A DNA stretch of 64,000 nucleotides from Umbilicaria muhlenbergii (taxonomy: Eukaryota; Ascomycota; Lecanoromycetes; Umbilicariales; Umbilicariaceae): positions 5,086,927-5,150,926 of the forward strand of contig KK106981.1 in NCBI GenBank assembly GCA_000611775.1. The letters run 5' to 3'. Position 1 is the stretch's first letter. Each line of letters begins with the position of its first letter. A program made the position numbers and the translations under genes. The notes beneath the pieces were generated by a model. It worked only from the letters and a program-made list of their open reading frames with translations, was not told the origin of the DNA and did not search any database. Positions 5,794 to 56,529 of this stretch are shown piece by piece.

Positions 5794-6014
5794 TTTGTAA
5801 TTGGCGATCTTTGTGGTCCTCAGTAAATCGTTGCGGTCGTTAATCTAAGTGAGGAGTCAGTATGACGCATGCGACGATTTCATGCTCGCTGTTGCCTGCA
5901 AGCCAGTAATTATTGGGGGGCGGATAGGGCTGGGCTAGCTGCTGCTTTGGGATACTTTATTTGAGCCTCAACTTTCCCCGAAGATTCCCAAAGGTGCGGC
6001 GCACGACTCTCGGC
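5794..6014. promoter_or_regulatory. Short divergent promoter region
   Basis: These 221 bases separate two divergent start codons (5793 on minus, 6015 on plus), so both promoters must overlap here. No clear TATA box was seen. Inference from layout only. Confidence 0.5.
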
Positions 6015-8528
6015 ATGGCTCAGGAGTCGAAGATCAAGGAATTCCCCGACATAGGGACAAAGCTCACAGCTCCTACCAAAAAGTCTCTCTTCGAACGTCA
6101 GAAGGCCGAAGCCGAAGCCAAACGGCAACGCGAGCAAGCAGAGACAGCAGCAGTTTACGAGGACTTTGTCAAATCTTTCGATGATGCAGATGGAACCTTA
6201 CCGTCTGCAGGAGCTGGGTCTCGGTCTGGAGGAGGATTTGGAGGACCAGGAGGTAGTGGTGGTTTTGGAGGACCTTCTAAACGACACTTTACCGGGCCAC
6301 CTACGGGCCCAGCTGCTGGGAGAGGAGGACTGGGCAGTACTCGGGGAAGCAGCGGACCGGGTAGCTTAGGGCCTCCGCCAGCATCGCTTTCGCGAAAGAG
6401 GGTTCATGATGGGTTACACGCTGCACCACGAGAATCCAGTCAAGGACTGTTTGCCTTCGAAGATTCGAATCCAGGTCCCTTAGATGCCAAATCTGCCTTT
6501 CAGAATTCAGATGACGAAGAGGAACTGGCTGGCCGCACGAAAGCCCAGGAGAGGTCTGCTCCTAAGCCCACGATTCACATGTCATCTTTACCACCTGGGA
6601 CATCGCCTGCGGTCATTAAATCAATCCTGCCTTCAAGCGTCGGGGTCGATGCGGTCCGCCTCTTACCGCCCTCCGGACCAGGCACAACCGAACGTAAATC
6701 ACTCTCCGCCATTGTCACTCTAGCTAAAGATACACCAGCGATAGATATCGATACGGCAGTGAGCGCTCTACAGAATAGATATCTTGGATGGGGCTTCTAT
6801 CTATCTCTATCACGGCATTTATCCTCGGCGGCCGTAGGAGCTGGTATGCCTATACCCGGGAGCTCTTCTGGATTATCTTCGCTTCCCTTCGGTGCTCGTC
6901 CCGTAGTAACAGGTTTGGGTAGGGCTCCACCACCAGGTTCACATCGTGGAGGTTTTGCCCCACCTTCATCATATGCACCTTCAGGTCCGGCCCAATTCGG
7001 CAGAGGAGCTCCGCTAGTTCATGTCAAGGTCAATCCACCGTCGGACCTCAAGGAGCTCAAGCTAATTCACAAAACACTTGAGGCTTTGCTCACACATGGA
7101 CCGGAGTTCGAGGCCCTTCTGATGAGTAGGTCAGATGTTCAGAGAGACGAGAAATGGGCATGGTTGTGGAATTCACGAAGCCCTGGTGGCGTTTGGTACC
7201 GTTGGCGGCTGTGGGACATTTTGACCGGAGCTCAAAAACGAAGTAAGAATAGAGCCAACGGGCAATCACAATTTGTTTTTGATGGAGGCGCAGCTTGGAC
7301 TGCTCCAGATGGAGGACTTGTTTTTGAGTACGTCACGGAACTTGAAGAATTTGTTTCGGACCCAGAGTACGATTCATCGGAAGATGATGAGTCTGGAGAT
7401 GAGGGACAGCGTCGTTCTTATCATCACCAGGGAGGCCCACCACCGCCAGATGCTCTTACTGGAACCGGGGACGGTGGTGGTAGAGCTTACTTAAACCCCT
7501 TGAAGAAGGCTAAGTTAACGCATTTGCTGGCCCGACTACCAACAACAAACGCAAGACTGCGAAGAGGCGACGTGGCCAGAGTCACCGCTTTTGCCATTCA
7601 GCATGCAGGCGAAGGCGGGGAAGAGGTAGTCGACATGATTACGTCCAATGTGCGAAATCCTTTAAACTTTACCAATGCAAATCCGGAGCGAAAGACCAGC
7701 GCTGAAGACGCAGTTATGAAAGATGACGAGGAAGCCAATGAGGAGGAAAAGAAGTCAGCAGAAAAGGAGGACACGTCATCTTCCAAGCTCATAGCACTTT
7801 ACATTATCTCTGACATTCTGTCATCATCCTCTACCAGCGGAGTCCGCCATGCCTGGCGCTATCGACAGCTTTTCGAAGCTGCACTCAAGCAAAAGAAGGT
7901 TTTCGAGGGCCTTGGACGTCTAGAGAAAGATATGCAATGGGGTCGTTTACGAGCTGAAAAGTGGAAACGTAGCGTCGGCAGCGTGTTGACACTGTGGGAA
8001 GGCTGGTGCGTTTTCCCTCAGTCGGCACAGGAGCATTTTGCAGCGGTGTTTGCAAATCCACCACTCACAGCTGCGGAAGAGGCGGCGAATGAAGCGGCAG
8101 AGAAAGCGTCTGAAGCTGCAATGGCTGCCAAATCTAAATGGAAGACTGTGGATGAGAAGGCACGCCAGGAGGATAGTCCTAGACCGGATCTCAGACAGCC
8201 AGCATCCGCCAAAGCGGACGATGCCATGGATATGGACCTAGATGGTGAGCCGATGGCTGATGATGGGGAAGATGATGATATCGATGGAGAGCCTCTGGAG
8301 GATGTCGATGGTGAGCCAATGGAAGAAGGCGAGGACAACGAGGCCGCAGATGGAGCCGATATTCAAGATGCTGTGCCCAACCACACTGAAACTGATCAAA
8401 CGCCCACGGTCGGTTTTCCAATGGGCACTGGACCCACCAAGAGCGCAGCCAAAGAGGCGACAACTCCGGCTAGTCGAAGGAGGCGGCCTAGGGCGGAAGA
8501 CATGTTTGCAGACTCAGATGAGGACTGA
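6015..8528 (+). CDS. U2SURP/SR140-like splicing factor (RRM-SURP-CID)
   Basis: Fungal relative of the U2 snRNP-associated SURP protein, expected in nuclear pre-mRNA splicing. I chose the ATG at 6015 (MAQESKIKEFPDIG); an upstream in-frame ATG at 5961 would add 18 residues. The product has about 837 residues. Parts in order: a start segment with FERQKAEAEAKRQREQAE; a Gly-rich region; an RRM-like segment at about 186-275 (HMSSLPPGTSPAVIKSILPS to YLGWGFYLSLSRH); a SURP module at about 345-404 (LKLIHKTLEALLTHGPEFE and EKWAWLWNSRSPGGVWYRW); an acidic linker; a CID-like domain at about 496-668 (SSKLIALYIISDILSS, HAWRYRQLFEAAL, VLTLWEGWCVFP); and an acidic Met/Asp-rich tail ending ADSDED. It has no intron, and its stop is 98 bp from the convergent HAD gene. 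Confidence 0.9.
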   Translation: MAQESKIKEFPDIGTKLTAPTKKSLFERQKAEAEAKRQREQAETAAVYEDFVKSFDDADGTLPSAGAGSRSGGGFGGPGGSGGFGGPSKRHFTGPPTGPAAGRGGLGSTRGSSGPGSLGPPPASLSRKRVHDGLHAAPRESSQGLFAFEDSNPGPLDAKSAFQNSDDEEELAGRTKAQERSAPKPTIHMSSLPPGTSPAVIKSILPSSVGVDAVRLLPPSGPGTTERKSLSAIVTLAKDTPAIDIDTAVSALQNRYLGWGFYLSLSRHLSSAAVGAGMPIPGSSSGLSSLPFGARPVVTGLGRAPPPGSHRGGFAPPSSYAPSGPAQFGRGAPLVHVKVNPPSDLKELKLIHKTLEALLTHGPEFEALLMSRSDVQRDEKWAWLWNSRSPGGVWYRWRLWDILTGAQKRSKNRANGQSQFVFDGGAAWTAPDGGLVFEYVTELEEFVSDPEYDSSEDDESGDEGQRRSYHHQGGPPPPDALTGTGDGGGRAYLNPLKKAKLTHLLARLPTTNARLRRGDVARVTAFAIQHAGEGGEEVVDMITSNVRNPLNFTNANPERKTSAEDAVMKDDEEANEEEKKSAEKEDTSSSKLIALYIISDILSSSSTSGVRHAWRYRQLFEAALKQKKVFEGLGRLEKDMQWGRLRAEKWKRSVGSVLTLWEGWCVFPQSAQEHFAAVFANPPLTAAEEAANEAAEKASEAAMAAKSKWKTVDEKARQEDSPRPDLRQPASAKADDAMDMDLDGEPMADDGEDDDIDGEPLEDVDGEPMEEGEDNEAADGADIQDAVPNHTETDQTPTVGFPMGTGPTKSAAKEATTPASRRRRPRAEDMFADSDED

Positions 8529-29999: not shown

Positions 30000-30550
30000 G
30001 AAAATGCTATGGGGGAGGCTTGTACATGGCAGCGGAAGTATGACAAAGGGATGCATGATGGTTGCATGATGGTTGCTACTTTGTCCTCGCTTTCGATTCT
30101 CATCAGGTTGCAATAGGTGGGCGCTTTCAGCGAGGGAGAATTGAAGGGGTCGTGTTTCAGTCATAGCCGGTTACTGCATGTTTTAGCGAACAAGCAAGCA
30201 CACATGCGACATCATTGGTAGAGCCTCCGCTTTTAATAGTAATAATGCATAGTCAGTCAATCGAGGACTTGTACGAGTACTCTTCCAAAGGCCTATGGGA
30301 CCATCTCCATCAAGGGCTGCTAAAGATAGTCTATCCTGCGTTCTAGACCGAAGTCCACCACGGATCCTGTGCCGAGGTTGGAAATGCAATGACATCTACG
30401 AGTAGAATCCTCCAACTAATGAATTCACTGCATGCGGCCCGAGCTGGACTCAGCACTTTTTTCCGATGGAACATCAGACTGGCACAATTCATCCCAGGCA
30501 TGTCTCTCTTTTCATCCCTCTAAGCTGTCACGACTTGTCTCGGAAAAATC
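30000..30550. other. Intergenic gap
   Basis: About 550 bases; 3' UTR of the DUF7707 gene and upstream region of the hydrolase. A 12-bp direct repeat (ATGATGGTTGCA) occurs twice at about 30055-30080. Confidence 0.4.
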
Positions 30551-31984
30551 ATGGACGCCTCCACTCTATCCTTCCTCCTCCCCAAACTTCCCTTCCTCCT
30601 CAAAACCGCCCTCTACCACTCCCTCTCCCTCTCCCCCACCGCTTCAAAATGGGATCTCCGCACCGAACTCACCATCAAACTCATCCGCGAATATGTCCGC
30701 CGTCCTAAACCCGCACCCATCTCCAAACAACAAGCGATGAGTCTGAAAGACCCCGGTATAAAGGGCAAGATGTGGATATCGAAAGTCACTCTTCCTCGCC
30801 CCGGAGAGGATGATGTGAGAGAAGTAGTGGTAGAGGCCATCGAGGCACTGAAGGAAGGAAACGAAACATACACAATCCCCGAGATCGCGTCGGTAGAAGC
30901 CGAGTGGACAGGTTGGAGGAAAGGCGTTAAGAATGACACGCCGCGGCCCGACCTGTCCGAGCCAGAGCACTATGAGCACCTAATGAAAGAAGTCTCAAAC
31001 GGCATAACGATCCTCTATTTCCACGGCGGAGCCTACTAGTCCGTCCCCACCCCCTCATTCCAGCCCTCGACTCTCCTCCCACTAACCCCCCCAAGCCTCA
31101 TGGACCCCTCCTCCCACCGCCCCACCACCGCCCTCCTCGCCAAACTAACCCACGGCCGCACCCTCTCCGTCCGCTACCGCCTCTCTCCCCAACACGCCTT
31201 CCCCTCCGCCCTCATCGACGCCCTCCTCGCCTACCTCACCCTCCTCTCCCCACCCCCAGGCTCCCTCCACGCCCCCGTCCCCTCCTCCCAAATCGTCCTA
31301 GCCGGCGACTCCGCAGGCGGCAACCTCTGCCTCTCCCTGCTGCAACTCCTCCTCCACCTGCACCGCACCCACCCTTCTTCCACCCCGACCATCCGTTTCC
31401 ACGGCAACGAAGTGCCCCTCCCCCTCCCCGCCGGCGTCGCCCTCAATTCCGCCTGGACGGACCAAACCAGCTGCATGCCCTCCATAACCCTCAACGCCCC
31501 CTACGACTACCTCCCGCCGCTCTCCCCCTCCCCCTTCTCAACCCCCGACTCCGCCTCCACCTCCACATCACACTTTCCCCCCTGCCCCCTCTGGCCTACC
31601 AACCCCCCGCGCGGCGCCCTCTACTGCACAACCAGCATGCTCTGCCACCCGCTCGTGTCCCCCCTCGCGGCGCCAGACTGGCGCAACGCCCCGCCGCTTT
31701 GGATGGTGTACGGGCAAGAGATGCTGGCAGACGAAGGGCGGGTAGTGGCGCGGCGGATGGACGCGCAGGGGGTGCGGGTCGAGTGGGTGGAGTTCGAGGC
31801 GATGCCGCATTGTTTCGCGTTGGTGTTGCAGGGGGGGTGGAATGTGCGGAGTCGGGTTTGTTTGGAGAAGTGGGCGGGGTTTTGTGGGAGGGCTGTGGAG
31901 GGGAGGATCGAGGGGAGTGGGGGGGTGTACGTGGAGGCAGGGGCGTTGAGGGAGAGGGAGGTGCCTGTTGGCGGGGGGGGATGA
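30551..31984 (+). CDS. Alpha/beta-hydrolase (HSL/GDXG esterase type)
   Basis: Exons 30551-31038 and 31096-31984 join in phase across a 57-bp intron with donor GTCCGT. The oxyanion HGGAYY spans the junction, GDSAGGN gives the nucleophile, LADEG the acid and MPHCFAL the His, so the whole catalytic machinery is present. Likely an intracellular esterase or lipase of unknown substrate, about 458 residues. Oddity: after a run of eight G (31973-31980) the frame ends at once. The +1 frame continues for 29 codons to a TGA near 32070 with a highly charged tail ending GEEGEAKIMPRL, which I recall as the family's conserved C-terminus. So either a one-base slip in the G run truncated the tail or the run is mis-sequenced. 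Composition flips from C-rich to G-rich near 31690. Confidence 0.85.
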
Positions 31985-34351
31985 CGAGGTGTGGGGGATG
32001 ATGCGGGAGGAGAGGGGGAGGAGGGAGAGGGGGGAGGAGGGGGAGGCGAAGATTATGCCGAGGTTGTGAGGGGGGCGGATTTGGTTGCGGATGTGCAGAT
32101 TTGTAGGAAGTATGTCGTAGAAGTATTTAGATACGGGTTTTGGTTAGAGGATAGATGCGTGTAAAGATTTTGTTAGACTTGTGAGCGGCATCGGTGTGCT
32201 ACTGATGTCTCGCATATGCTCATATGTAGGTGGAGGTTTTGAATATTGTATATTGACACATGTGATGTAGGTCTCCCTTTCGTTCACTTTCCACCGTAAT
32301 TTGCCTTTGCCCTTTAGGTGTCGCTACATCCGGAAGTAGAGGTCCTTTTTGCGGAAAGGCGCGCGTCGCCGCCCGGACTGGCACCCGTTTTCGCATATAA
32401 AGCTCGCACCTCCCGCTGTTTTAACCACTTTCCAAACCCTCCACTTTCAGCGGTCCCCCTCCTCGTCTCTTTCACCCCCACGCTCCACGCTCATCCTCAC
32501 CTTCGCCCTCGCCCCTCCTCCTCCTAATAACCAAGATCCCCCTCCAACCTCCAGTATCGACTCTTGTCATTCCAACCTCCGCTTCTCTTCTACCATCATT
32601 CCTCTCATTGCCGTCTCTGTCCTGCCGGTCTGATCGCACCTCTCGCTCATTTCAGCACTCTTCTACCACCTTCGCGATCCATCGAACGACTGCAGGCAGG
32701 CCCTGCTCCTGCTGTCGTCACGCTGTCCTGATTTGGCGATTCGACGAGCCTCTGACCTTCGTTCGATCGGCGATGAACCTCCCTCGTCTTACCTGCTCCT
32801 CGCCAGCTACCTCAGCTGCGGCCCAATGCCGTGACTGGACACTGCATTAGCCCTGTCTCATCTTTCGTCACAAGGCCCTCGGACATCGGCGACCCCGATG
32901 CATGAAGGTGGCGGTCGGGACAGGATGACCCAAAAAATGCCTTACCGAGCACGGATTTGGACACCCGGCCGCCGATGACGTGGAGGAGCGGGTGTGCTGC
33001 TCTTGGCGCGCTGCCTCCAGGGGCGACATGATCGGGTAGGAGAGTGCGGGAGACGGTGGGAGCGACCCTGACGAATGGCAAATATGCCGCGCAACATGGC
33101 CTGACAACGACGACGATAACGCCAGGACGCCCCTGTGCACACCGAAATAGGGAGGGGCTTCAGCCGTCTGCTTGATGACCCCTCCGTGCGACCAGGACGG
33201 AAGGCAGTGCTGTTGCGAGACGGAAGGGCGCGATGTGACCAACCGGAGACGAGATCGCCGTAACCGCCCTCTCCTATTCCACCCCCACCGACAGGCTACC
33301 TTCCCGATGAATGACGCTTCAAGCGGCTCGCATGTGATCCTTCAGGGCCAACGTGCAACCGCCCGGTCAAAGGATCCGCTTCAGGACCCTCGGCGCCGAG
33401 CGTTCCCTGCCGTTTTCGTGCGACGGCTCTCTACGGTGTGGACTGCGGATCCCAAACTGGCCACTCACATACATCGAGCTTGTTCCGGCGTTCAAAATCA
33501 GCCCACGGCTGCAGGGAGACTTGCACGGTGAGCTGGGAACCTTTGACACCGCATGTCTCGGAGTCACCGACGCTCCTCTCGCCCAGAGCGCTGCCACGGT
33601 GGAGACGGCATGCATGAATCTGTTGGTGATCAGCTTGCAGGATACGAGGCGGGGCCGCGGGTCCCCTCAACCTCATGTAGATGCCTGATGGCGTGAGGTG
33701 GGCGTGCGGCATTCTGGACGCATCACAAGGCAACTGCGGTTGGGGCATGGGCGACTAGGGCGTGGGCGGTTGGGGGCCTCGAATGTGACCAGGGGGGCAT
33801 CCGGATGCCACCTTTTGCTGGCGCACCAGGGATGTAGCTCCAGCGGAGGTTGCATTCGAATCGACAGAGGACCTGTTTCCCAGCACTGCCGCCATCCCGG
33901 AGTGGTTCATGTATCGGATCGAGTGGCATCAGACCTTGCGAACGGTTCCCCTGGACGAGAGACGAAGAAAATGCCTCACTCATATCGCTCAGGCAAGCCG
34001 GAGCGAAGTCCGATTCGACGGTGTGCGTGTGACTATGATGCATGCCGGGGGACCGAGAAGGACAAGGCAGGGGCGGTTCAGGCCGTTCAACAAGGGATGA
34101 GGACTCTTGGCTGTACGGTCAGCGACTGTGCCGAGAAGAGCCTGTGGAGAAGGGTTCCCACTCAGATTGGCAGCTACGAAAGTTGAACGGGAAGCCTTTT
34201 TCGCCAGGGAGTGAGAGTCGTCGCAAAGACCGTGCTCGGCCGTCTTCTAAAAGGCCTCCTGTCCCAGCTCTACAGTATCCGCCTTTCCCTCTCAACCTTT
34301 CGACCTGCACAGTGCTGTTAGAATCTCACGGCTAACCACCCGTCTTCTACA
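31985..34351. other. GC-rich 2.3-kb stretch without a supported gene
   Basis: After the out-of-frame hydrolase tail (to about 32070) there is a region with a TATA-like CATATAAAG at about 32393, followed by a strongly pyrimidine-rich tract (about 32440-32640), the usual look of a strong fungal promoter and leader. It is followed by 1.7 kb of GC-rich sequence with many short frames on both strands and no protein motif. A long spliced leader or a non-coding transcript is possible. Confidence 0.4.
32390..32640 (+). promoter_or_regulatory. Candidate strong promoter with TATA-like box and CT-rich tract
   Basis: GCATATAAAGCTCGC at about 32391 is followed by some 200 bases of mostly C and T with repeated CCTCC/TCTTC words. 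No good coding start follows within 1 kb, which is why it stands out. Confidence 0.4.
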
Positions 34352-36093
34352 ATGGATAACCCCCTGCAATACGATCCCAATGCTCCTGTCTCGCGGTTTT
34401 CCAGCCGTCTACAGTTTTGCCCATTCAACCCCGACGCCAAGTCCGCTGCGAAAGCCAACAAGAACGTCTCAGCGAGTACGAAAGCCAGACGGACCGCCAG
34501 CGTCTCTGAAATCGGTAAGGGAGAAGAGCTTTCGAGCCAAACGACCGCGGTTGAGGAAACTGCTTCTACCCCGCTTCAGATGCCGAAGATCGACCGTCCC
34601 GGTGTTAATGATCGTGCTAAAACTTCAGGTATGCTTGACATCCAGCGTCGTCATCTATGCAGCTGATCAAATACCTCAGCGATAATTATCGACGGCCATA
34701 GCGATCCATATGACGGCAGCAACGACCTCGACGATGGCGGTGATGAGAGCGACGGCACGATTCCTTGCGCAGCCTCTTCTCCCCCGTCGAGCTGGACGGG
34801 GACTCCTCAGAAACCGACTTGGGCGTCGACACTGAGCAGGATGGGCTTCACAAGCGACTCTCAGAAGATGCGGTCCCGGCCGCCGAGAGATCGAGGACAG
34901 GGGACAGCGCAGGTGAGTGTTCCATGTTCGTCAAATTCTCACGGGGTGAAGTCTTACGAGCTGCAGATATGCCGATTGTTGTGGACGGTGACGCGTCCGC
35001 CATGGACTCGAGCGACGTTGCTACTCCCCAGAGCCTAGAGCGTGAGCAGGAGCCACACCGGGGCTTCGATGAGAGGATCCCGCTCTCAATCTCGGATCTC
35101 AACCAAGGCGGCCGTGTCGAAAGTGACGACGGATCCGACGGCGACTCCATAACACGCTTCACGTTCCGGAAACGGAAGCTTGGTCTGGGGGTTGGTGGCC
35201 TCCTCTCGAATGTTCCACTCTCGTCTCACCCGCAAGAAGACAACCGTGTCACGAACAGAGAGAGCCAGCGTGTTGAGGGGGATAAGGGCAGACGCAAACG
35301 CCGCCGCCATAATGACCGTGATCGGGCCGTGGAACGAGATGACCACTCACTATCCGGCGTTCTCACTGGAGGCGACAGCGGCGATGCTGAGAGAACCCGG
35401 GGCGTCCGTCGACAGATGGGATTAACTCCTCGGCGCCGGAATACGAATGACACAAGTGACCTGGCCTCCAGGCGGAAGAGACGGCACCTTTCTGTTTCGT
35501 CGTCATCGTCATCGTCATCGTCGTCTTCGTCATCGTCGTCTGCGTCATCGTCGTCTACGCCATCGTCATCTGACGAATCGCAGCGGAACAGCGGGCTTGT
35601 TGCGTCTCAATCCGCCCGTCGTCGCCGACAGCGCGAACTCCATCTTTCGAGCACGCCGTCGGGAGATCTTACTTCGGATGGACAGGAAAGTTACGGTCAT
35701 GACGATCTTGCCGTTGCCGAGCAACTAAGCAGACCCGATCCAGGGACTCCGAGGTCCTCTGCGAAACTCCAAGAGACGGAAGGGATGGCCCGGTCGAATC
35801 CGAAGGGCGGCCACATCAGTGCGGACGACGGCGAGGACGGATCCCAAGATGAAACCGTGTGGGAACATGGACCTCTTCTGAATTACAAAGTCGTGAATGG
35901 GAAACCTCTCGTCCTGGTGCCTTGGTATGCTACCTGGGAACCGCCTGATGAGTACCCAGAGGAAGAAGTGGAGAGGGTCAAACAACAATACGAGTCGGGG
36001 GCACTGGGCAAGCGACGGGGAAGGCGGCCTTTGAGGGTGGTGGGTGGTAAATCTGGTGGCACTGCTTACGCATCTACAAGAGCCGTGTCTTGA
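34352..36093 (+). CDS. Ser/Arg-rich nuclear-type protein with chromo-like C-terminus
   Basis: My model joins 34352-34628, 34748-34912 and 34967-36093 with closing phases, about 522 residues. The 54-bp second intron is a multiple of three and may be retained without breaking the frame. The middle has basic clusters (KGRRKRRRHNDRDRAVER, ASRRKRRHLSVSSSSS) suggesting nuclear location, and a poly-Ser run of about 20 encoded by a TCG/TCA microsatellite. The C-terminal ~60 residues are the most protein-like: LLNYKVVNGKPLVLVPWYAT, then WEPPDEYPEEEVERVKQQY. This resembles a chromodomain hairpin and its W-E-P linker, but I do not assert membership. The TA-rich first intron boundary is the least certain part. 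Confidence 0.6.
35498..35575 (+). repeat. TCG/TCA trinucleotide microsatellite (poly-Ser)
   Basis: About 26 consecutive TCN-like triplets, mainly TCG, TCA and TCT with rare GCG, ACG and CCA, inside the coding frame. Expected to vary in length between strains. Confidence 0.85.
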
Positions 36094-41419: not shown

Positions 41420-41693
41420 GAATTTACTGTGATATTGTTCGTTATCCAATGGGCCTTGCCGCCACTGTCCCAATAATAGTACATCTCGTGCTCATCATTC
41501 CATTTCATCCCTTCAACCATCGATCAGTACCTCTGGTTGGGCTCGTAGTACCGGTAGACCGCCCGAATGGGTCACACAAAACATCATTGGGCTGAAGACG
41601 CCTCTTCACTCGTCCAGTTGAATTGTGTCGAAACATCTCGTTCTCTTTCCACCAAGAATCGAGCGGAGGATAGTTGGTCTGTACCAGCTTCAA
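41420..41693 (-). pseudogene. Decayed partial copy of the 43.5-kb PD-(D/E)XK-like gene
   Basis: The minus strand reads KLVQTNYPPLDSWWKENEMF, RHNSTGRVKRRLQPNDVLCD and MKWNDEHEMYYYWDSGG, matching the C-terminal ~110 residues of the gene at 43485-44819 in the same order (there KLVQTGYPQLDSWWREGEMF and so on). The N-terminal three quarters are absent and the reading frame is broken, so this is a remnant. It lies inverted relative to the intact gene, about 1.8 kb away from that gene's start. Confidence 0.8.
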
Positions 41694-42981: not shown

Positions 42982-43484
42982 TAATGCATTGCCCTACACC
43001 GTGGACCACTAGCTATGCATCCGGCTACCATTGTGAATCGTTCAGGCGAGCGGCGAGCGATCAATTTACTGTGTTTCTGTACTCTAGTTAGTTCTCAGCC
43101 ATGCAGCTTAAAATATCCCTTCTCATCTCTCGATTGATCCCGTATGTAAGCCTGTCGCCGTACCTAGTACTAGCCTGTACACGCTGCTGTATATTAAGCC
43201 AGACAAGGATGTCAGGGGCGGTCGATGTGTTCATCTGCAAGTTGCAAGTCCGGTGTGAACTACAACTGAGTCTGAGCGCCATAGGCGTATCAATAAGTCG
43301 AGGCGGCCACAGTCTACAGCTGAGGAGCTACTCCTAGCGCACCACGATATGGCGCGTGGAACATGCAAGTGCAGGCAACGAAGGAGGTTTGGGCAGTCGG
43401 GTGCTTTCTTTGATCTCAGACTATATGTATTGCGTGCTACCCTAGTCCCTAACGTGGCAGAGTTTTCTCCTCATAGAGCCCAAC

Positions 43485-44819
43485 ATGGTCACGATTGAAG
43501 AGTATCTCGATCGAAAGAATCCGGATATCGACAACAGCAACACTTCTTCAGGGCCGAACACGGTCAGCACCAATTATTCCACCATCAGTGGGGTTAGTGA
43601 TTGGGAAGAATTCAATTACAAGACCCTCAAAAATTTGTACGGTGAGATATTGGATCAGACCATTTCCTCTCCGCCTTACCATCAAAACCCCACGGAGTTA
43701 GAGGCGGAAATTTGGGACGAACACCAATTTGAATTCCTTCTCTCGCAATACATCCTTGGCCCCGTACGGTTCACCCTTCGGCTGGCGTACAATTACTGCG
43801 AGAAGTCTTGGAAACAGAACCCTGAGGGTGAATATGTCTCCCCAATTGACCCGGGAGCTGGTGGTAGAGCCAAGCGCCCGAGCGACAGTGACGATCCACG
43901 CTTTCGGCCGGACTGGTCCTGCGTGAGGAAAAATCATATGACTTCAAGCACGCCGAGGTCCTACTTCAACTGTTGCCCCGGAGACACGAAGCTTGCTGTG
44001 AAGTGGAAACATGAGTGGCACCGAACGAACTATAAAGTATGGAAGAATCCAGCTGAACAGATTCAGACTTATTCCGGAGACCGCTGGAACGTCCGCTATG
44101 GTTGGATCATGACTGAGGATGGAGTCACCGTCTTCTTGATCACAAGATACGCCGTCGATTCCGGTCTTTCGACATCAAAGGCACCGCGGGTCCCCGCTGC
44201 TGCGGTACCTCCGAGTCATGCACGTGTCGCTTCTGGGGACACAGACATCAGTTCCACAATGGCTTCAATGTCGATTACGACGCAGAGCTACCAAGACGAT
44301 CATCCAAATGTGGAATATCAGCCAATCAAGGCCAAATTCATCCCATGGCGTGACGCCGGAAAGGGTCTGAACGTCAAGAAGGCCCTTTTCTTGCTATTTA
44401 TGCTTGCTGGGGCCCCCGGCGGGCCCAAGCTCGTTCAAACCGGCTACCCTCAACTCGATTCTTGGTGGCGTGAAGGGGAGATGTTTCGTCACAATTCGAC
44501 TGGGCGAGTAAAAAAGCGCCTTCAACCCGATGACGTTTTGTGTGACCCGTCAGGGCAGTCTGCCGACTCAACGGCCCTAATCCAACGACCTGACCAGACG
44601 GATACAGCGACGCCAGAAGACTCTCAGCTAGTTCGATCGATGGTCGAAGAGATGAAGTGGAGCGACGAGCACAAGATGTACTATTATTGGGGCGGTAGCG
44701 GTGGCAACAAGTGTCATTGGATAACCAACGGAGTCGTGATTCTTGACCAGAAGACCGGAAAGTATGGGGTGACAAGACCTGATACAACACTGATGAATTC
44801 AAACACTCACCTGAATTGA
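43485..44819 (+). CDS. Fungal protein with PD-(D/E)XK-like pattern
   Basis: An intronless frame of 444 residues. The N-terminal third has WDEHQFEFLLSQYILGPVRF, then RFRPDWSCVRKN and, 20 residues on, NCCPGDTKLAVKWKHEW. The spacing of Glu/Asp in the first helix, Asp in RPDW, and Asp-x-Lys in GDTK resembles the core of PD-(D/E)XK nuclease-fold proteins. I recall fungal accessory proteins with this RPDW...GDTK signature. The fold call is inference. The C-terminal part (LDSWWREGEMFRHNSTGRVK, EEMKWSDEHKMYYYWGGS) is the section duplicated at 41.4-41.7 kb. No membrane or secretion signal. Confidence 0.65.
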   Translation: MVTIEEYLDRKNPDIDNSNTSSGPNTVSTNYSTISGVSDWEEFNYKTLKNLYGEILDQTISSPPYHQNPTELEAEIWDEHQFEFLLSQYILGPVRFTLRLAYNYCEKSWKQNPEGEYVSPIDPGAGGRAKRPSDSDDPRFRPDWSCVRKNHMTSSTPRSYFNCCPGDTKLAVKWKHEWHRTNYKVWKNPAEQIQTYSGDRWNVRYGWIMTEDGVTVFLITRYAVDSGLSTSKAPRVPAAAVPPSHARVASGDTDISSTMASMSITTQSYQDDHPNVEYQPIKAKFIPWRDAGKGLNVKKALFLLFMLAGAPGGPKLVQTGYPQLDSWWREGEMFRHNSTGRVKKRLQPDDVLCDPSGQSADSTALIQRPDQTDTATPEDSQLVRSMVEEMKWSDEHKMYYYWGGSGGNKCHWITNGVVILDQKTGKYGVTRPDTTLMNSNTHLN

Positions 44820-46351: not shown

Positions 46352-46608
46352 ATGTGCCGTTGGAGCCTCCCTCTTGCCCTGGCGACGGCGGGCGCTTATC
46401 TTGATCAAGTGGCGACCAGCTTTGCGGATTATCTTCGCTTGTACGAAGAATCCTGGCTGAGCTTCTTCAGTTCTGGGCATATTTCGATAATCAGGATCTC
46501 TGGTTCGAGCTTTTGCAATATGAGCCCTCGGACGCCTCGGGATGGTTTACCAAACTGATCGAGGACGAGCTCAGCTTTACCCAGGCGGTGAGAATACTGT
46601 GTAACTTG
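46352..46608 (+). pseudogene. Remnant of an NB-ARC/TPR (STAND) receptor gene
   Basis: Two pieces of a typical fungal NB-ARC-TPR protein lie close together in different frames: CRWSLPLALATAGAYLDQVA and SFADYLRLYEESWL (the GLPLALA motif region, 46352-46462), then FWAYFDNQDLWFELLQYEPS and GWFTKLIEDELSFTQAVRIL (46471-46605). In intact relatives these are separated by some 45 residues, missing here, and the P-loop half and TPR half are absent. The remnant ends where the 17-bp minisatellite begins. In fungi these proteins act in self/non-self recognition. Confidence 0.8.
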
Positions 46609-46634
46609 TGTTCATTCCTGGACAATTCTGGCAG

Positions 46635-46915
46635 CAAACAGTGGCTGACAGCAAACAATGGCTGGCAACAAGCAGTAGCTGGCAACAAGCACCGCCTGGC
46701 AACAAGCACCGCCTGGCAATAAGGACCGGCTGGCAGCAAACAATGGCTGGCAACAAGCACCGGCTGGCAATAAGGACCGGCTGGCAACAAACACCGGCTG
46801 GCAACAAGGACCGGCTGGCAACAAACACCGGCTGGCAACAAACACCGGCTGGCAACAAGCAGTAGCTGGCAACAAGCACCGGCTGGCAATAAGGACCGGC
46901 TAGCAGCAACCCATC
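46635..46915. repeat. 17-bp minisatellite (GGCTGGCAACAAGCACC type)
   Basis: About 16 tandem units of 17 bp, varying at a few positions (AACAAACACC, AACAAGGACC, AATAAGGACC, AACAAGCAGTA). Because 17 is not a multiple of 3 and the unit has few stops, long frames appear on both strands. I take them as artefacts. Confidence 0.93.
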
Positions 46916-47123
46916 ATATTAACCTGACTCATCATCTCGGGATTCTCGAGGGTAAATCTGACTCATTATCTCGGTGTTTCAAGATCAGATGGCCAGATAC
47001 TTGGAGCCCGTTGCGGCTCTCAGGACCCCAAATAATCCCCTTGTCAGATCCCTGCATAAGAGGGCGGTGCTGCGAGGAATGGGAGACGGCCCGAAAAGGC
47101 CTCTCTTGGCATTTTTCAGGGTC
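46916..47123. other. Spacer between minisatellite and next candidate gene
   Basis: Contains a 2-copy repeat (TGACTCATCATCTCGG / TGACTCATTATCTCGG) at about 46925-46975. Otherwise nothing noted. Confidence 0.4.
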
Positions 47124-48714: not shown

Positions 48715-49165
48715 ACCCACCAGCCCATCGAGCCCGAGCCAGCCCATCGAGCCAGCCCAGGCCTATCGAACCAGCCCAGGCTAATCGAGCCAGCCCAGGC
48801 CTATCGAACCAGCCCAGTCTTCCGTAGCTGTAGCCCAGGCCATCGAGCCAGCCCAGTCTTCCGTAGTAGCCCAGGCCATCGAGCCAGCCCAGTCTTCCGT
48901 AGCTGCTGTAGCCCAGTCTTCCGTAGCTGCTGTAGCCCAGTCTTCCGTAGCTGTAGCCCAGTCTTCCGTAGCTGTAGCCCAGTCTTCCGTAGCTGTAGCC
49001 CAGTCTTCCGTAGCAGTAGCCCAGGCCTATCGAGCCAGCCCAGTCTTCCGTAGCTGTAGCCCAGGCCTTTCCGTAGCTGGCCTATCGATCCCGAGCCAGC
49101 CGTTAGCTGTAGCCCACGTAACGAGCCAGCCCAGGCCCATCCGTAGCGGTAGGCCCGCTTATCGA
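48715..49165. repeat. Minisatellite of AGCCCAGTCTTCCGTAGCTG and GAGCCAGCCCAGGC units
   Basis: Two related unit types are interleaved: CATCGAGCCAGCCCAGGC (about 18 bp, dominant 48715-48815 and again at the right end) and AGCCCAGTCTTCCGTAGCTGT with 3-bp length variants (about 21-24 bp, about ten copies from 48805 to 49060). Unit lengths are mostly multiples of three, so a plus-strand Ser/Pro/Cys-rich frame stays open, but no flanking gene structure supports it. Confidence 0.88.
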
Positions 49166-49824
49166 GCCAGCCAAGGCGTAAGGAGCCCGGGCCATCAAAT
49201 TAGAGACTGGGCTATGAACGGGGAAAGGGAAAGATATGGAAATGGGCTATGATGACGTCCCATGGACAAACGATGGAAAATTGGCTTTCAAGCTCAGTTA
49301 TGACATAAACGAGAGCCAATTTTCAGAAATATATAGATTTATTTTATTGCAGGACCAGCTGCAGCTACTCAAGACAAAATATGACTCTTCATCTCCCCAC
49401 CATTGTCCACGTCAAAGATACACCAGTACAGGTTTCGTCGTCATCCGAATAGCAGGTGGACTCAGGCTTGCCCGACCACGTGAGCCGAGGTGAGGGATCC
49501 AACGCGTGGGTGAACTTCAGACCTGCTGGATTTGGCGGTCCCCCTTGGTTTTTGGCGTGACTGATCTTGCGGAGGCACAGGATCGTCAGAGCATGACTGG
49601 ACGACCGAGTACACCTCCAAAGTCGAGTCAACTCTGAGGTGGTCAAAATATCACGTGAAGGTTTTTGAAACTCCCAGCTACTCCTCGCGGTCTATTTTAA
49701 TCACAACTTTTTCGCGGCTTCCAAACATTGGCGAATCGGTGACGCCAATTGCATACCAGAACTAATTCTTACCAGCCCTCGAACGGACATAACCTCGTAT
49801 ACTGAACTCCTTTTGCGGACGAGG
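49166..49824. other. Gap before the DUF7587 gene
   Basis: About 660 bases; an 85-codon frame at 49236-49493 (MEMGYDDVPWTNDGK) has no motif I recognise and might be a small exon. Otherwise nothing noted. Confidence 0.4.
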
Positions 49825-50657
49825 ATGGCCCGCCGCGAAACCAGCTCTCTGCTTCGTAACCTCGCCGCACAAGGTCCTGAGACCGCAGCTTCTTCCCTCG
49901 ACCAAATTGGGCGCAATAACGCAAGCTCCATCAGCAATAGCTACAGTGAAGAGATGGAGAGTGCACGAGCAAGTTCTGCTGCAAAGCAGGAACTTGGAGT
50001 CCTGGAGACATATCGATGCAACACCGATTATCTCCGCATCAAGCGCCGCTTTTGGAGAGTCATACACGCCGAGTCTCAGGCGAAATCGAACAGTTGCGGC
50101 GACATTGTGGCCTCGAAAACGGCTGCGGACGTCCAGAGCCATCAAGACTTGGAGCAGGCCGTAGAGCACCATCTAGATTGGCGTTGCCGCATACCTAGCA
50201 GCTTCATATCTGTTTTTGATGACAAAAAGCATGCCATCAACTGGGCGATTAACGCGCGCAACCGGCAGGAGAAACGTCGCGAATACAGCCCTGTTTACGT
50301 TCAGGAAATCAATACGGCATACTTGAATGACGTCTGTGTTTTGGATCTCGGACGGATAGTACGAGAGCTCGATATCTCCTTCAAAAACGTCGAGCACGAG
50401 TATCTAATCCTCTACAACATTCCGAGACACGCTCTAGAAAGCAATAGCGATGTTGCCATACTGGAAGAACGAGGTGAGCGCCAACTGCACCCACTGACAA
50501 CGCGCCATACTGATTTGAAGGCACAGCGCTCGAAACACGTGAGCAGGAAGACCGATGGAAAGATCCAGGTTACCACTGGGTTGATGATCTACATGGATAC
50601 TACGACACGGACGAAGAGTGCGAAGAGCACAATATGAATGACGATTTGATAAAATGA
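49825..50657 (+). CDS. DUF7587-type protein, possibly ADP-ribosyltransferase-like fold
   Basis: Exons 49825-50473 and 50521-50657 join in phase through a 47-bp intron (donor GTGAGC) and give about 261 residues. This ending (EERGTALETREQEDRWKDPG, then an acidic tail) looks more natural than reading through the intron. The core matches the fungal DUF7587 pattern: HHLDWRCRIPSSFISVFDDK, HAINWAINARNRQEKR, VYVQEINTAYLNDVCVLDL, and VEHEYLILYNIPRHAL. The family's role is not established. The order of an early Arg, a central S-F-I-S and a late H-E-Y resembles the R-S-E layout of ADP-ribosyltransferases; that is my inference. The start ATG was preferred to an upstream TTG. It lies directly downstream of the DUF3435 gene's 3' end on the opposite strand. 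Confidence 0.7.
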
Positions 50658-51650: not shown

Positions 51651-54476
51651 CTAGGGACGAAGCCTGATTATATGCATCTTTTGAGTGTGATTCTTGAAAT
51701 GAGGCACGCTCGACAGGATAAAAGTTGTTCCCCTAGCTTTGCAGATGGAACAGGCCTCCTTACCGCTCGCATACGCTGCAAGTTCATCACGGTGGAGACT
51801 CTCCACATGATTCCACATTTTGTTGACCGTGCTCAGCGGTTTGGTTCGTTCCTGATAGGGCTTGGACATGTTACAGATGCAGAAGGGGCACTGGGTCGGC
51901 TCGCATTTTTCGGGAACCGTCTTGATCTCTAAAGGTTCAGGCACGAGATGGTGCTTCGATGCAGACGCAAGCTTCCCTCGACGTTGGGTTTCCTGTCGGT
52001 CCTGCCACTTGATCCACAGTCTGATGCACTCCAGCCGTCGGGCATGCTCCTCCTCTACCGTCAAATCCGCTTTGGATCTGCAGATCAGTGGGACCAGTGC
52101 CGCACGCTCGCGAATCTGGTAGACGGGCGGAGTTAGACGTGGGGTTGGTTTCTGGGGCTCGGACGAACAGCCTGCAAATTGCTGATTGAGCATCATGGTG
52201 TCGCTACTCCGGAAATGCCTCTTCCTCGCCCTCCTCTTTAGCTTTTCTCGGAGACGCGTTCTTGCACGGTTCAAGTCGTTGTCCGCCTCGATTTTCCGAT
52301 CATATATCGCCGTAACCTCGGCATCTCGCACGAAACGATAGCCTCTCTCCTTGATCTTATCCGTGAGTCTCTGAGATCTTGCCACCAGACGCTTGATTCG
52401 AGGGTGATTCGGAATCCGAGCTTTCTGTTTGTCATTGAGGCCCGTCGGCGCCGTCATATCCGCCATTAGCGTGGTCATTCTAGCCTCTTTCTGCACGGCC
52501 TCGTTGGATGGACGTCCCAGGAACGCGGCAGCCGTGTCAAATTCAACGACTTCGTTGATGTAATATTTAACCGCGTTGGACTCGTGGTCGGCGATTTGAT
52601 CCCGGACTGATGAAGGCGCCTTGTCTGAAAAGTGCTTCGAGTTAGTCTTAGGGAGTCAGTTGAACTGGGCAGGAGGGCTCATACTGTTGATCGCGTTAAT
52701 GGTACCACGACGCAATACCTTCTGAGTCAGATTTTCCTCTAACCCTGCCTTGACCCCAAGCCGTTTGACATAGCGACTCCACGTCCTTGCCTTGAGAGGT
52801 TTATCATCTGAAGTCCGATACCCCTTCGCCGAGCGTTCCGGTTCACGGAAAATCGGCAAATCTAGCATGTCTCTTTTGATCTTCAACTGCATGCCCCTCT
52901 TGTAGTATGGGATTTCGGCTCGGTAGATATGTTCGATGTCTTTGTTGTCGGCATCAAAGATATCGGTATCAAAGATGTTATCGTGCATCGCCATGGCGAG
53001 GAGTTGCCCGAGAAGGTCGAATAGCGGGTTGTATTCATGTTCAATGACAAATCGCTTGCTATAGCATGACAGGTCAGTGCTTGAACATTACGATTAGAGA
53101 GACCGTACCTTACATTCGAGGTTTCCTGTCTTCACCCTTTGTGTGGAGCAGGGTGACGATCGCAAACAGGATATTGGGTCGCCCCGGAACCGGGCTGCGG
53201 AGGATGTAGAAAGCGATATGCCTCCAGAGAATGGTTCGTGTTTCCTCCTTGCCAGCAAGGTATCCATCATCGGTAACGCTGGAAGCATCCGATTCCAAAC
53301 CGAGATCGCTATCCGCGTCGGTTTCCGTATCGCTAACCCCATCGGAGTCCACTTCATCTGTGTCGCTGTCCTCTTCCGTCCCTATGTCTGTATCATGGTA
53401 TGCGTCGTCATCTGAATCGTTGGCCACATCATCGCTCAGGTCGTTGTGTTCCATGAAGCTCATCCGATCGGTGGACGTGTTGCGGCGATTGGCGAAATTG
53501 CCGTCGTCCAAGGTCCCATCGACCAGCGTATCCTCACTGTCGGTGAAGGATTCGCTGTCCAGATTGCCGGCCGTCAGATTATTATCGAAGTCCGTTAAGG
53601 TGTCACCATCCAAGTTGGCATGCCTACCCGCAGGCGGCTTTGCGTCGGCGATTTGAGCCTTGCCTCGGGTATCGAACAGCGAAACGGCCCTGCAGCCAGA
53701 TATGCTTGACATATTCAAGCCCGGAAAGATGTAGAATCGTTGCTGTTCGTCCTGAAACACCGCATCGCACCAGACCAGATTGACGACGAGAAAATAGCAG
53801 AGGTCGTCCACGACTGCTACAGGTTTTGGCTTCGGCAGCTTACGGAGGCCCATTCTCTCGCTGACGACTTTCTTGTACTGCGACACAAATACACACGGAA
53901 TTAGTTTCGCACCCTCCCTTCACCATGGATCCAACAGGGTCGTCTTCGTACATTAAGAATGTCCGTCCTCATGCTCTCATCCATACACCGTCCTGCTTCC
54001 TGAACGTACAGCCTCTTGAGAACCCGCCAGTATTCGCTGAGGCTGGAATCCGCCTTGATTGAACCCTTGAAATTATCCTCTATCCAATCGAAGTAGGCCT
54101 TGACATCCTCAGCCTTCAGATTTTGCAGGAGGGTCTTTGGATTCTCGTTGATCTTAGAGCAGAACCTAAATATTGGTGAGCGACCGCGGTGAAACATATC
54201 GTCCAGCCTTTGCCGCTGGTACATGGCTTACCTTTCCCACTTTCCCATAACCGAGCGGTCCAACTTCTTGGTGTTGTCGACAGCCTTGGCTGGTGTTCGA
54301 CCCGCTGCCGCATGCTGCTTCCGGCGTTCGTTGTAATCGCTCAACCCCCCAAGCTTTTGCGGATGTCCTGGTTTTTCCCTGCCTCTTCCATTTCTGACTT
54401 TCGGCTGTCCAGGCTGCCGACGCCGGCTTGATTGGGACCGCAACGGACGAGTGGAGGGTAGGTTGGTACGGGCCAT
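51651..54476 (-). CDS. DUF3435 tyrosine recombinase, Starship captain-like
   Basis: DUF3435 tyrosine recombinases mobilise Starship giant transposons of Pezizomycotina. Exons 54476-54232, 54165-53952, 53877-53114, 53058-52685 and 52624-51651 close in every phase and give 856 residues with no internal stop. Parts: a basic N-terminus; a DNA-binding-like helical region (ENPKTLLQNLKAEDVKAYFD, SEYWRVLKRLYVQEAGR); VVDDLCYFLVVNLVW; SISGCRAVSLFDTRGKAQ with the first catalytic Arg; an Asp/Ser-rich insert of about 150 residues; LWRHIAFYILRSPVPGRPN and LLHTKGEDRKPR; QKVLRRGTINAIN with the second Arg; then IADHESNAVKYYINEV with the likely His and nucleophile Tyr. The C-terminus has two C2H2-like fingers (CPFC...HVESLH and CSIC...HTQKMH). 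The gene looks intact. Catalytic assignments are from motif memory. Confidence 0.9.
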
Positions 54477-54998
54477 TCCTCACGAGGGGTCAAGATGGGG
54501 AGTCGAGAAGGAGAAGAGGCACCGCAAGAGGTACGGTGACAGCACAGGACTCGAGGTGTGGTGCGATGACTCGTGCTTTTGGGCTTGGAGGGTGGTGATT
54601 CGGAGGGAACATCTGCAGGTGTAGTTGTGGGAGAAGGGGAGTTTGGGAGGGGGAAGACTCGGTGGATGCCATGATGGTATTTATATCCTCTGCCAGTTGA
54701 CTTGGGCGGGGCGGCTTTGGTTGGGCCTCTTGGGAGGGGTGAGCAATTACGAGAGGGTGCGCGCGGTTGGCATTGGCGGGTACCTGAATTGACCTCCAGA
54801 AGTGGTGGTTCACGCACGGGCCAGCGTGAAAGCGGCAAGCCAAGACTTCCCCATTCGCGCACCTGGTCCGTGCTCCACGGTGTTGCGGCCTCCAAAAGCA
54901 GCTCCAAAACCCTCCAGATTCGGCGGTCGAAACACCTAAAGGTAGATTCTTTATGTAATCATGCAGAGACTCCTTCTTCGACCGAGTGACCTAGCCGC
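54477..54998. promoter_or_regulatory. Upstream region of the DUF3435 gene
   Basis: About 520 bases between two minus-strand genes. Frames on both strands are open but low-complexity (Pro/Ser-rich). A TATAAATACC box (minus strand, about 54673-54682) lies roughly 200 bases upstream of the recombinase ATG. Confidence 0.5.
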
Positions 54999-56000
54999 TT
55001 ATTCGGCCTCTGCCCTTTTTGAGTAGGCTGAAAGCTTCTCGCCATCTGAAAGCTTCCAGGTAAGGGCACCCCAAAGGCTCCTGGAAATGTTCTTCATCTT
55101 CTGTCGACATCCTGTCAGCTGGCGCGTTACCAGTTCTTCTAGTCGACGCTTTCGGTCCATGGCTTTTGCTTTCTCGGTCAGACGAAAGTCATCTTGGCTG
55201 TTCAGTTTCCAGAAATACTGATATTGGACATCCATAATCTTGGAGCGCATGTTATATCGAGGGTTATTCGCTGGATCTTGAAATAGCGGTTGTGTCGATG
55301 GGATGGCGGGATAGATATATGGAAGATGGGCTTTGTCTTCCAAGATCTTCTCGGCCAGCTCATTCCAGCGACCCTCCGATGCGAGGAGCAGTGCAAAGGG
55401 TCCACATTTTTCCTGTCGTTCTTTGAAGGATTCCACTTGCTTCAAGGCATAGGCAGTATCGATGCAGGCTTCGGACGAGACTGTCAAGGTCCTTGTCATT
55501 GCAAACATGCCTTTATCATCTCCTGACCTGCCATGGCACAATTTGGCCGAACTGTTGAATCCTTCAGGGTTCCGTAGATAGCGGCCGTACTGTCTTGCGG
55601 CATGAGTAGGCCAGCATTCGACCCCTAAGTCTTCGTGCGAGCATCCGTAGTCAATGTTCAAGCATCTGGCGAGGAAGTGCCGAAGGACTGTCATATCTTT
55701 ACTAATTATCATGGAGGTGCTGGGTGGCCGATAGAGGTACTCCCAGTGCTTGGTTATCTCATCATCTAGGTCTGAGAGGGTCTTGCTCATGGAACGAGGC
55801 TCGCGGTGTTGGAAGACAAGAGCGGCCTCACAGATCCTCTTGGCAGTTTCAATTCGCGCTCGAAGGCTCGGAGTGAGATTGTCCTGGCCGAGAAGATCGT
55901 CGTACCTAACAATCTGCTGTTGTGTGTTCTGAACTGAGTCCGCAGGCTGAATTAATCTCGCCTGCTGAGGGGCCGGTGTCGGAACCAATGCGGCGGGCAT
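54999..56000 (-). CDS. Unknown protein upstream of the DUF3435 gene
   Basis: An intronless frame of about 333 residues from the ATG at 56000 (MPAALVPTPAPQQARL); the upstream in-frame codon is TTG, not ATG. It reads as a soluble helical protein: ARIETAKRICEAALVFQHRE, SDLDDEITKHWEYLYRP, HEDLGVECWPTHAARQYGRY, QEKCGPFALLLASEGRWNEL, EKAKAMDRKRRLEELVTRQL, then a basic C-terminus. I do not recognise the family. It is co-oriented with and 520 bp upstream of the recombinase; a promoter-like TATAATATC lies at about 56065-56075. It could be part of the same mobile unit or just outside it. Confidence 0.6.
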   Translation of the reverse strand: MPAALVPTPAPQQARLIQPADSVQNTQQQIVRYDDLLGQDNLTPSLRARIETAKRICEAALVFQHREPRSMSKTLSDLDDEITKHWEYLYRPPSTSMIISKDMTVLRHFLARCLNIDYGCSHEDLGVECWPTHAARQYGRYLRNPEGFNSSAKLCHGRSGDDKGMFAMTRTLTVSSEACIDTAYALKQVESFKERQEKCGPFALLLASEGRWNELAEKILEDKAHLPYIYPAIPSTQPLFQDPANNPRYNMRSKIMDVQYQYFWKLNSQDDFRLTEKAKAMDRKRRLEELVTRQLTGCRQKMKNISRSLWGALTWKLSDGEKLSAYSKRAEAE

Positions 56001-56094
56001 GCCGGCAATTTGGGCTCGCAAAAGTGGCGAGGAGGATATCGTTTCTACTTAGAAATGAAATGTGATATTATAAAGGAGACAACTTGAATGACAA

Positions 56095-56529
56095 GTAACG
56101 TATCCCACTGGGCAACGCCGCACTATAGGCAACGCCGCACCTCCCACCCCCCCCCCGGGGGGGGAAAAATCAGAATTTCACCAATTGAGCTGTAAATTTC
56201 GATCTAAATAAGGAACTTTGAAGCTCTACATTGTAGTCTATAACAGAGCTGTAGGATTCTATGCATTTCAGCACCTCCAAGGCTGCTTTTGCTGTGACAA
56301 CTGCAGTCTTCGCAGTCTGCTTCTCCTCTTTATCCTGCAGCCTGTTTTGACTTCCTAGCCTGTGTCTCTAGCTGCTTTCTGGATTTGTAAGAGCGTTATT
56401 ATAGGCCTCAATGGCCTTCAGAATACCCACTTCTTTCTCCATTGAATGCATGCAATTATGGTGGAGAAATGGGTAATTTCAATAGTTGGGGGGGGGGGGG
56501 GTGCGGCGTTGCCCCGTGGACTACGTTAC
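56095..56529. mobile_element. MITE with 29-bp terminal inverted repeats, TA-flanked
   Basis: The left end GTAACGTATCCCACTGGGCA and the reverse complement of the right end GTAACGTAGTCCACGGGGCA match at most positions and both continue ACGCCGCAC. If the element starts at ACGTA, both sides are flanked by TA, as for Tc1/mariner-type insertions. There is no transposase, only about 430 bp, so it is non-autonomous. The left TIR is followed by a second copy of GGCAACGCCGCAC, then a run of about ten C and eight or nine G. The right TIR is preceded by about 14 G. Inner sequence is AT-rich. Confidence 0.88.

Follow-up and report, generated by a model that had tools for sequence, protein, structure and literature searches.

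A 64,000-nucleotide stretch of the genome of the lichen fungus Umbilicaria muehlenbergii (C1:5086927-5150926, here called the window) probably contains a single-copy Starship-type element of about 22.7 kb. Judged from the sequence, the element would lie on the minus strand and run from a TTAC at 54958 to a TTAC at about 32296, with its captain gene at 51651-54476. Starships transport large sets of genes inside a fungus and from one fungus to another. An earlier note on this DNA had suggested a Starship, or the remains of one, at 19-57 kb; the possibility of a Starship was strengthened by the captain and by a TTAC-core 5' end, but the proposed extent was not supported.

The captain gene model on the minus strand has five exons (54476-54232, 54165-53952, 53877-53114, 53058-52685 and 52624-51651) that join in phase, as the note had claimed, across four introns that are all GT..AG. 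It encodes an intact captain-like DUF3435 tyrosine recombinase of 856 aa. Introns 3 and 4 seem to have counterparts at matching positions in P0021 and P0171, two unspliced relatives that read through them. The sole strong Pfam match of the protein was DUF3435 (PF11917), with E=3e-50 and a score of 171.7 against a cut-off of 25.8 bits. Arg216, Lys400, Arg524/525, His546 and Tyr553/554 were present and are kept in most homologues covering them, which confirmed the Arg, second Arg, His and Tyr recombinase motifs noticed before. The two C2H2-like fingers said to end the protein were found as two CxxC...H zinc fingers, conserved in most homologues covering that part. The homologue P0001 has a YR-like fold; when P0001 was used as the query in a search of solved structures by sequence, only weak PCNA matches were obtained (E 0.02), and these were judged to be chance. 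The codon GC3 of the captain was 0.62, with 14 neighbouring ORFs spanning 0.45-0.84, and is uninformative on origin. We consider the gene to be real, and its reading as a Starship-type captain is well supported.

The assembly searched for related genes comprised 34.79 Mb in 7 contigs. PF11917 matched 24 stretches genome-wide, which we grouped into 14 places including the focal one. Eleven of the 13 other places had stop codons in the matched stretches and a GC of 0.33-0.44. The places without stops in the matched stretches, at C2:2644591-2645539 and C1:10448531-10449236, together with the focal gene, had a GC of 0.51-0.57. These two carry DUF3435 of other, diverged lineages, and it is possible that they are intact captains or domesticated genes. 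A second DNA copy of the focal captain gene was not found in the genome. We fetched 16 DUF3435 regions that cover all 13 other places, their stretches totalling 151 kb, and the window had no DNA homology to any of them at E 1e-5. Among them, protein similarity to the captain peaked at about 24-33%, reached in parts of L044, L054, L055 and L057.

Two of the degraded captain loci, L054 (C5, 3401-8820) and L057 (C2, 3952-9370), have 5.4 kb in common at 91%. Their differences are C/T or G/A in 486 of 489 cases, and the two must thus have been nearly identical before they decayed, which points to a recent duplication. In other pairs, L052 differed from L053 and from L056 by C/T or G/A changes in 193/196 and 197/212 cases. 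Despite these near-pure transitions, classical CpA RIP was rejected for the degraded DUF3435 copies, as the dinucleotide indices do not fit. CpG was strongly depleted in the degraded copies (observed/expected 0.07-0.62) and was the dinucleotide most often changed per available site in all three pairs, though the counts of CpG were small. On this sequence evidence, a C-to-T mutation process that is directed at repeats and leans toward CpG seems to act in this lichen fungus. The focal captain was spared the decay that destroyed most other DUF3435 copies, probably because it was a single copy throughout. Degraded DUF3435 and DUF3723 genes also occur in clusters, at C4:1242702-1518638 and C2:6560951-6634549; in the C2 cluster a captain is followed some 70 kb downstream by DUF3723, resembling a large derelict Starship. 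DUF3723 pieces at C3:1205-2736 and C4:1323901-1325432, of which one is close to a contig end, have equal scores and stop counts and are probably recent duplicates.

The 5' edge was placed at the TTAC at 54955-54958 on the minus strand, the start of TTACATAAAGAAT, with an uncertainty of up to about 6 bp. This edge lies 482 bp upstream of the captain ATG, in a 522-bp gap to the next ORF. No gene was recognised in the 482 bp, which two stop-to-stop frames (166 and 205 aa) overlap. A Starship target TTACA(N5)AAT is published in PMC12153272, and at 54958 it has its sole occurrence on the captain strand of the window. The occurrence expected by chance is 0.006 in the 522-bp gap and 0.033 in the 2.8-kb zone, for a pattern that fitted after five target patterns had been tried.

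Independent evidence for this edge, which the target pattern had already located, came from the degraded loci. The sequence shared by L054 and L057 starts with TAAC, two differing bases and then GTAGAAACTATTTTCAGG. Beyond this start, the two loci have unrelated flanks. The focal block at 54840-54958 (minus strand) is homologous to these mapped ends. Against the L054 end it showed identical spacing and a local score of 46 (shuffle maximum 34, 0/2000 as high), and against the L057 end a score of 43 (shuffle maximum 42, 0/2000 as high). When the L054 end was compared with both strands of the window, the best fit was at about 54950 with a score of 40, the next place reaching 32. The L055 end aligned strongly with that of L054 (72, shuffle maximum 37), but its score of 25 against the focal end was not beyond chance (98/2000 shuffles as high), and its best window matches lie away from the focal 5' end. 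A shared-terminus pattern was present upstream of each of the four captains and absent elsewhere in the 151 kb and the window on both strands; as the pattern was derived from those same four sequences, its evidence lies in spacing and position and not in the count. L054 (C5), L055 (C4) and L057 (C2) have the terminal motif and spacing upstream of DUF3435 as at the focal locus, with TAAC where the focal edge has TTAC. Their captains reach about 25-30% identity to the focal protein where the two align, and these loci carry heavy C-to-T mutation. The search for TTAC-like repeats at 54.5-57 kb that had been proposed thus yielded a TTAC-core end at 54958 that matches the mapped 5' ends of L054 and L057.

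The proposed 3' end is a TTAC at 32296-32299 (minus strand) with an inverted repeat adjoining. Together with 54955-54958 it would form the direct repeats; a 4-bp sequence is frequent by itself (123 TTACs), and the second copy was picked via the inverted repeat. That repeat is the 11-bp subterminal CCTTTAGGTGT, with one arm at the captain end (54932-54942, minus strand) and the other at the far end (32311-32321, plus strand). Among the 123 TTACs left of the captain on the captain strand, 32299 ranked first by inverted run, with 11 against 8 for the next. Two of 19,908 random places reached a run of 10, which makes the expectation for 123 places about 0.012. CACCTAAAGGN{6,16}TTAC occurred once in the genome, at 32.3 kb, and its reversed control four times. 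In local alignments, 32299 again led the 123, whether 40, 60 or 80 inner bases were used, and 0.03-0.08% of random places scored as high, corresponding to 0.04-0.1 expected among 123. The 3' flank TTACGGTGGAAA fits TTAC(N7)A, which is worth about a factor of four.

Other controls were less favourable. A direct-orientation control scored 34 versus 30 for the inverted match, in sequence rich in purines near 32.48 kb. In a first scan for a 16-nt ungapped inverted repeat, 32299 came third of 123, and 3.6% of random places were as high. The outermost 11-12 bp of both proposed ends did not match each other. The candidate terminal inverted repeat is a subterminal 11-bp run that ranks first of 123 with mixed controls. 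Terminal inverted repeats occurred in 18/20 Starships in PMC12153272, and are thus frequent and not universal. No inverted match to their own 5' end was found for L054 (C5) and L057 (C2) with up to 3 mismatches in 200 kb downstream. Taken together, the sequence comparisons make the TTAC at about 32296 a candidate 3' end that we rate, on balance, as somewhat likely to be the true one.

Between these two ends (32296-54958, minus strand) the element would comprise 22,659 bp (32,300-54,958) and one TTAC copy. This falls inside the size range of high-confidence Starships in A. fumigatus, which span 16,357-443,866 bp in PMC12153272. The content is multi-genic, and the cargo is a candidate one: an ORF of 448 aa without a Pfam match (34747-36093, plus strand), a FunK1 fungal protein kinase in two frames (PF17667; 36713-39017, minus strand; E=3e-92 and 6e-34), an ORF of 457 aa without a Pfam match (43446-44819, plus strand) and a DUF7587 protein (49669-50637, plus strand; E=9e-16). 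FunK1 and DUF7587 were among the cargo-like neighbours said to fit a Starship, and both were present. The NB-ARC remnant named with them was not found, as PF00931 had no match in the window in a six-frame search at E<=1, and the window had no DUF3723 match at E<=0.01, which weakens the cargo argument. PLP, FRE and NACHT domains were absent from the subset of window ORFs scanned, and Rfam and tRNA scans found nothing. The tandem arrays at 46594-46950 and 48718-49182 inside the proposed element have units of 17 bp and 19-38 bp, and at 44770-45364 members of two dispersed families of short repeats, about 400 and 195 bp long and with many genome copies, adjoin each other. A transposon at the inverted arms 41459-41690 and 44427-44701 was considered and rejected, since the translations reveal a gene fragment and its diverged copy in inverted orientation.

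The flanks at the proposed ends read ...gtctctgcatga / ggtggaaagtgaac... and the genes in them are convergent, so an insertion between them would disrupt neither. The left flank gene (30524-31984, plus strand) is an alpha/beta hydrolase (Abhydrolase_3, E=5e-30 for 31040-31984), to which 30524-31039, without a Pfam match alone, was joined by eye. The right flank ORF (54999-56048, minus strand) has 349 aa without a Pfam match, and its sole match in the genome at E<=0.01 was itself. It lies between the captain and the Ish1 and SurE genes. The captain had been expected as the first gene at one edge and pointing inward. Its position 482 bp from the proposed edge agreed with this, but ORF 54999-56048 lies further right; that the captain adjoins the element edge and would be transcribed inward holds only if the 54958 edge is right. 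Outside the proposed element, 56095-56529 is MITE-like with inverted ends of about 29 bp and has 87 matching stretches including the window's own, that is dozens of copies, many of them 83-97% identical. The window stretches searched had no other copy in the genome except for this MITE and a single match of 56 bp; for 19-37 kb the 56-bp match was the only one. Further left, a host SURP-domain protein (5928-8528) shared 89% identity with Lasallia pustulata and up to 91% with sequences of the source lgn.

A first homologue search with the captain protein found 32 homologues, the best being an Aspergillus protein of about 51% identity over the full length, and a profile search found 107. Both searches scored roughly 8000 candidates with the most words in common. 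P0167, a partial JGI record of 299 aa, was 89% identical to the captain. When papers were checked for the locus tags of six homologues, no mention turned up. Of 108 rows, 102 stayed in a quick tree, and a careful tree was built from 54 chosen rows; both comprise database homologues only. In the careful tree the captain paired with P0167 (support 100/97), was joined next by P0021 (JGI) and P0176 (Pyrenula) (98/96) and nested in a clade of 21 rows that includes Aspergillus and Talaromyces (100/99). The six sequences from named Lecanoromycetes (two Xanthoria, Variospora, Lepraria and two Gyalolechia) fell in a separate 19-row clade (100/100). Constraining the captain pair into the Lecanoromycete clade was rejected (AU p 6e-6), the groups for this test having been named after the first tree was seen. 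As far as the trees go, the captain falls with Eurotiomycete and metagenome captains, apart from the named Lecanoromycete ones. This placement fits horizontal spread; deep paralogy with loss also fits, and Umbilicariales are poorly sampled. The Lecanoromycete clade had Glu at the position of captain His805 in 21/23 rows with a letter and Pro at that of Cys827 in 22/23, so its C-terminal fingers would be built differently. Seven DUF3435 proteins with the source marked lgn (P0168, P0170, P0175, P0178, P0180, P0190 and P0192) lay within the Aspergillus clade, and if lgn stands for lichen metagenomes they may derive from thallus-dwelling moulds.

Three other readings of the locus were weighed. An element with the true 5' end and captain but another 3' end, longer or shorter than 22.7 kb or derelict after losing its 3' part, is a lesser possibility that deserves attention. 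The 5' edge has independent support, and the 3' end is an 11-bp repeat and a TTAC with mixed controls; yet a 3' pattern that is unique in 34.8 Mb and correctly oriented lies 22.6 kb away. It is rather improbable that DUF3435 stands alone here as a captain relic or host gene without an element, the shared block being a conserved promoter and the 11-bp repeat a transcription-factor site. The 32.3-kb arm does lie directly upstream of a TATA-like stretch, but the block starts at the point where two duplicates with different flanks become homologous, and the core 10-mer of CCTTTAGGTGT shows no genome-wide enrichment (25 sites in 34.8 Mb versus 43 for the reversed control).

We give very little credence to the whole 19-57 kb being one Starship. 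The captain is close to the right edge of that block, and repeat pairs such as ACTAGG plus AGTACCGCA link 57.03 and 18.89 kb. However, shuffles were equally rich in such pairs (53 distinct versus a mean of 46.1, with 33/150 as many), an ORF lies beyond the 5' edge at 54.96 kb, and the left part contains ordinary domains (ankyrin, DUF7707, Abhydrolase_3) and is single copy. Among distinct direct and inverted repeat pairs linking the 5' zone to other parts of the window, the best pair was equalled in 23/150 shuffles. Three pairs end at 18.9-20.6 kb, with partners at 55-57.3 kb. The direct repeats sought at the far left end thus exist at shuffle level and give no evidence for 19-57 kb. An earlier generic repeat scan, run at five settings against 30 shuffles, was in range at three settings, equal to the highest shuffle (28) at one and above the shuffles at the fifth (28 versus 27), with overlapping hits counted separately. 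The best ends were those at 54958 and about 32296.

We therefore return to the single-copy element between these two ends, which may, from its sequence, be a small mobile element that still works in the lichen fungus. By analogy with published Starships, the captain would bind both element ends, and its active-site tyrosine would cut and exchange strands at the TTAC core. The element would then excise as one unit, taking FunK1, DUF7587 and the other cargo along, and reinsert at a TTAC-type site. A bolder version, in which an intact and potentially mobile 22.7-kb Starship arrived horizontally from a Eurotiomycete lineage and holds the lone captain of its kind that escaped the repeat-directed mutation, is unlikely but conceivable. 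According to the title of a reference in PMC9232553, Umbilicaria muehlenbergii is amenable to genetic manipulation, and the locus offers exact, checkable ends in such a species. If the Starship were indeed intact and mobile, a transformable lichen fungus could serve for watching Starship movement.

Cryptons are DNA transposons mobilised by a tyrosine recombinase. They have this in common with the focal locus, where the strong match is to DUF3435, and Crypton and Starship recombinases are very distantly related (PMC12134995). The Aspergillus DUF3435 proteins (P0001-P0018 and others), compared as proteins alone and from another class of fungi, have about 50% identity to the captain over most of their length and a like catalytic and finger layout, and most of them have Lys where the captain has Lys521. 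At this place, by our alignment, a Tyr is reported for HhpA and Sanctuary (PMC12506042). The DUF3723 and NB-ARC accessory families missing from the window are common in Starships and not defining. In Starships the captain is transcribed inward near an edge; the distance is about 350 bp in Sanctuary (PMC12506042), and the focal 482 bp is measured to a proposed edge. Starships with ends of the Nebuchadnezzar/Hephaestus type have a TTAC core and several genes inside, as in the focal candidate. Its TTACA(N5)AAT 5' end and TTAC(N7)A 3' flank match targets in PMC12153272, where TTAC is also part of a Phoenix-family target. A Starship in a lichen-forming Lecanoromycete was not found described in the parts of the open-access literature searched, a scope outside which two founding papers lie, and we make no claim of priority. 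Starships as a class are already known, and what is new here is a candidate Starship-type element in a lichen fungus.
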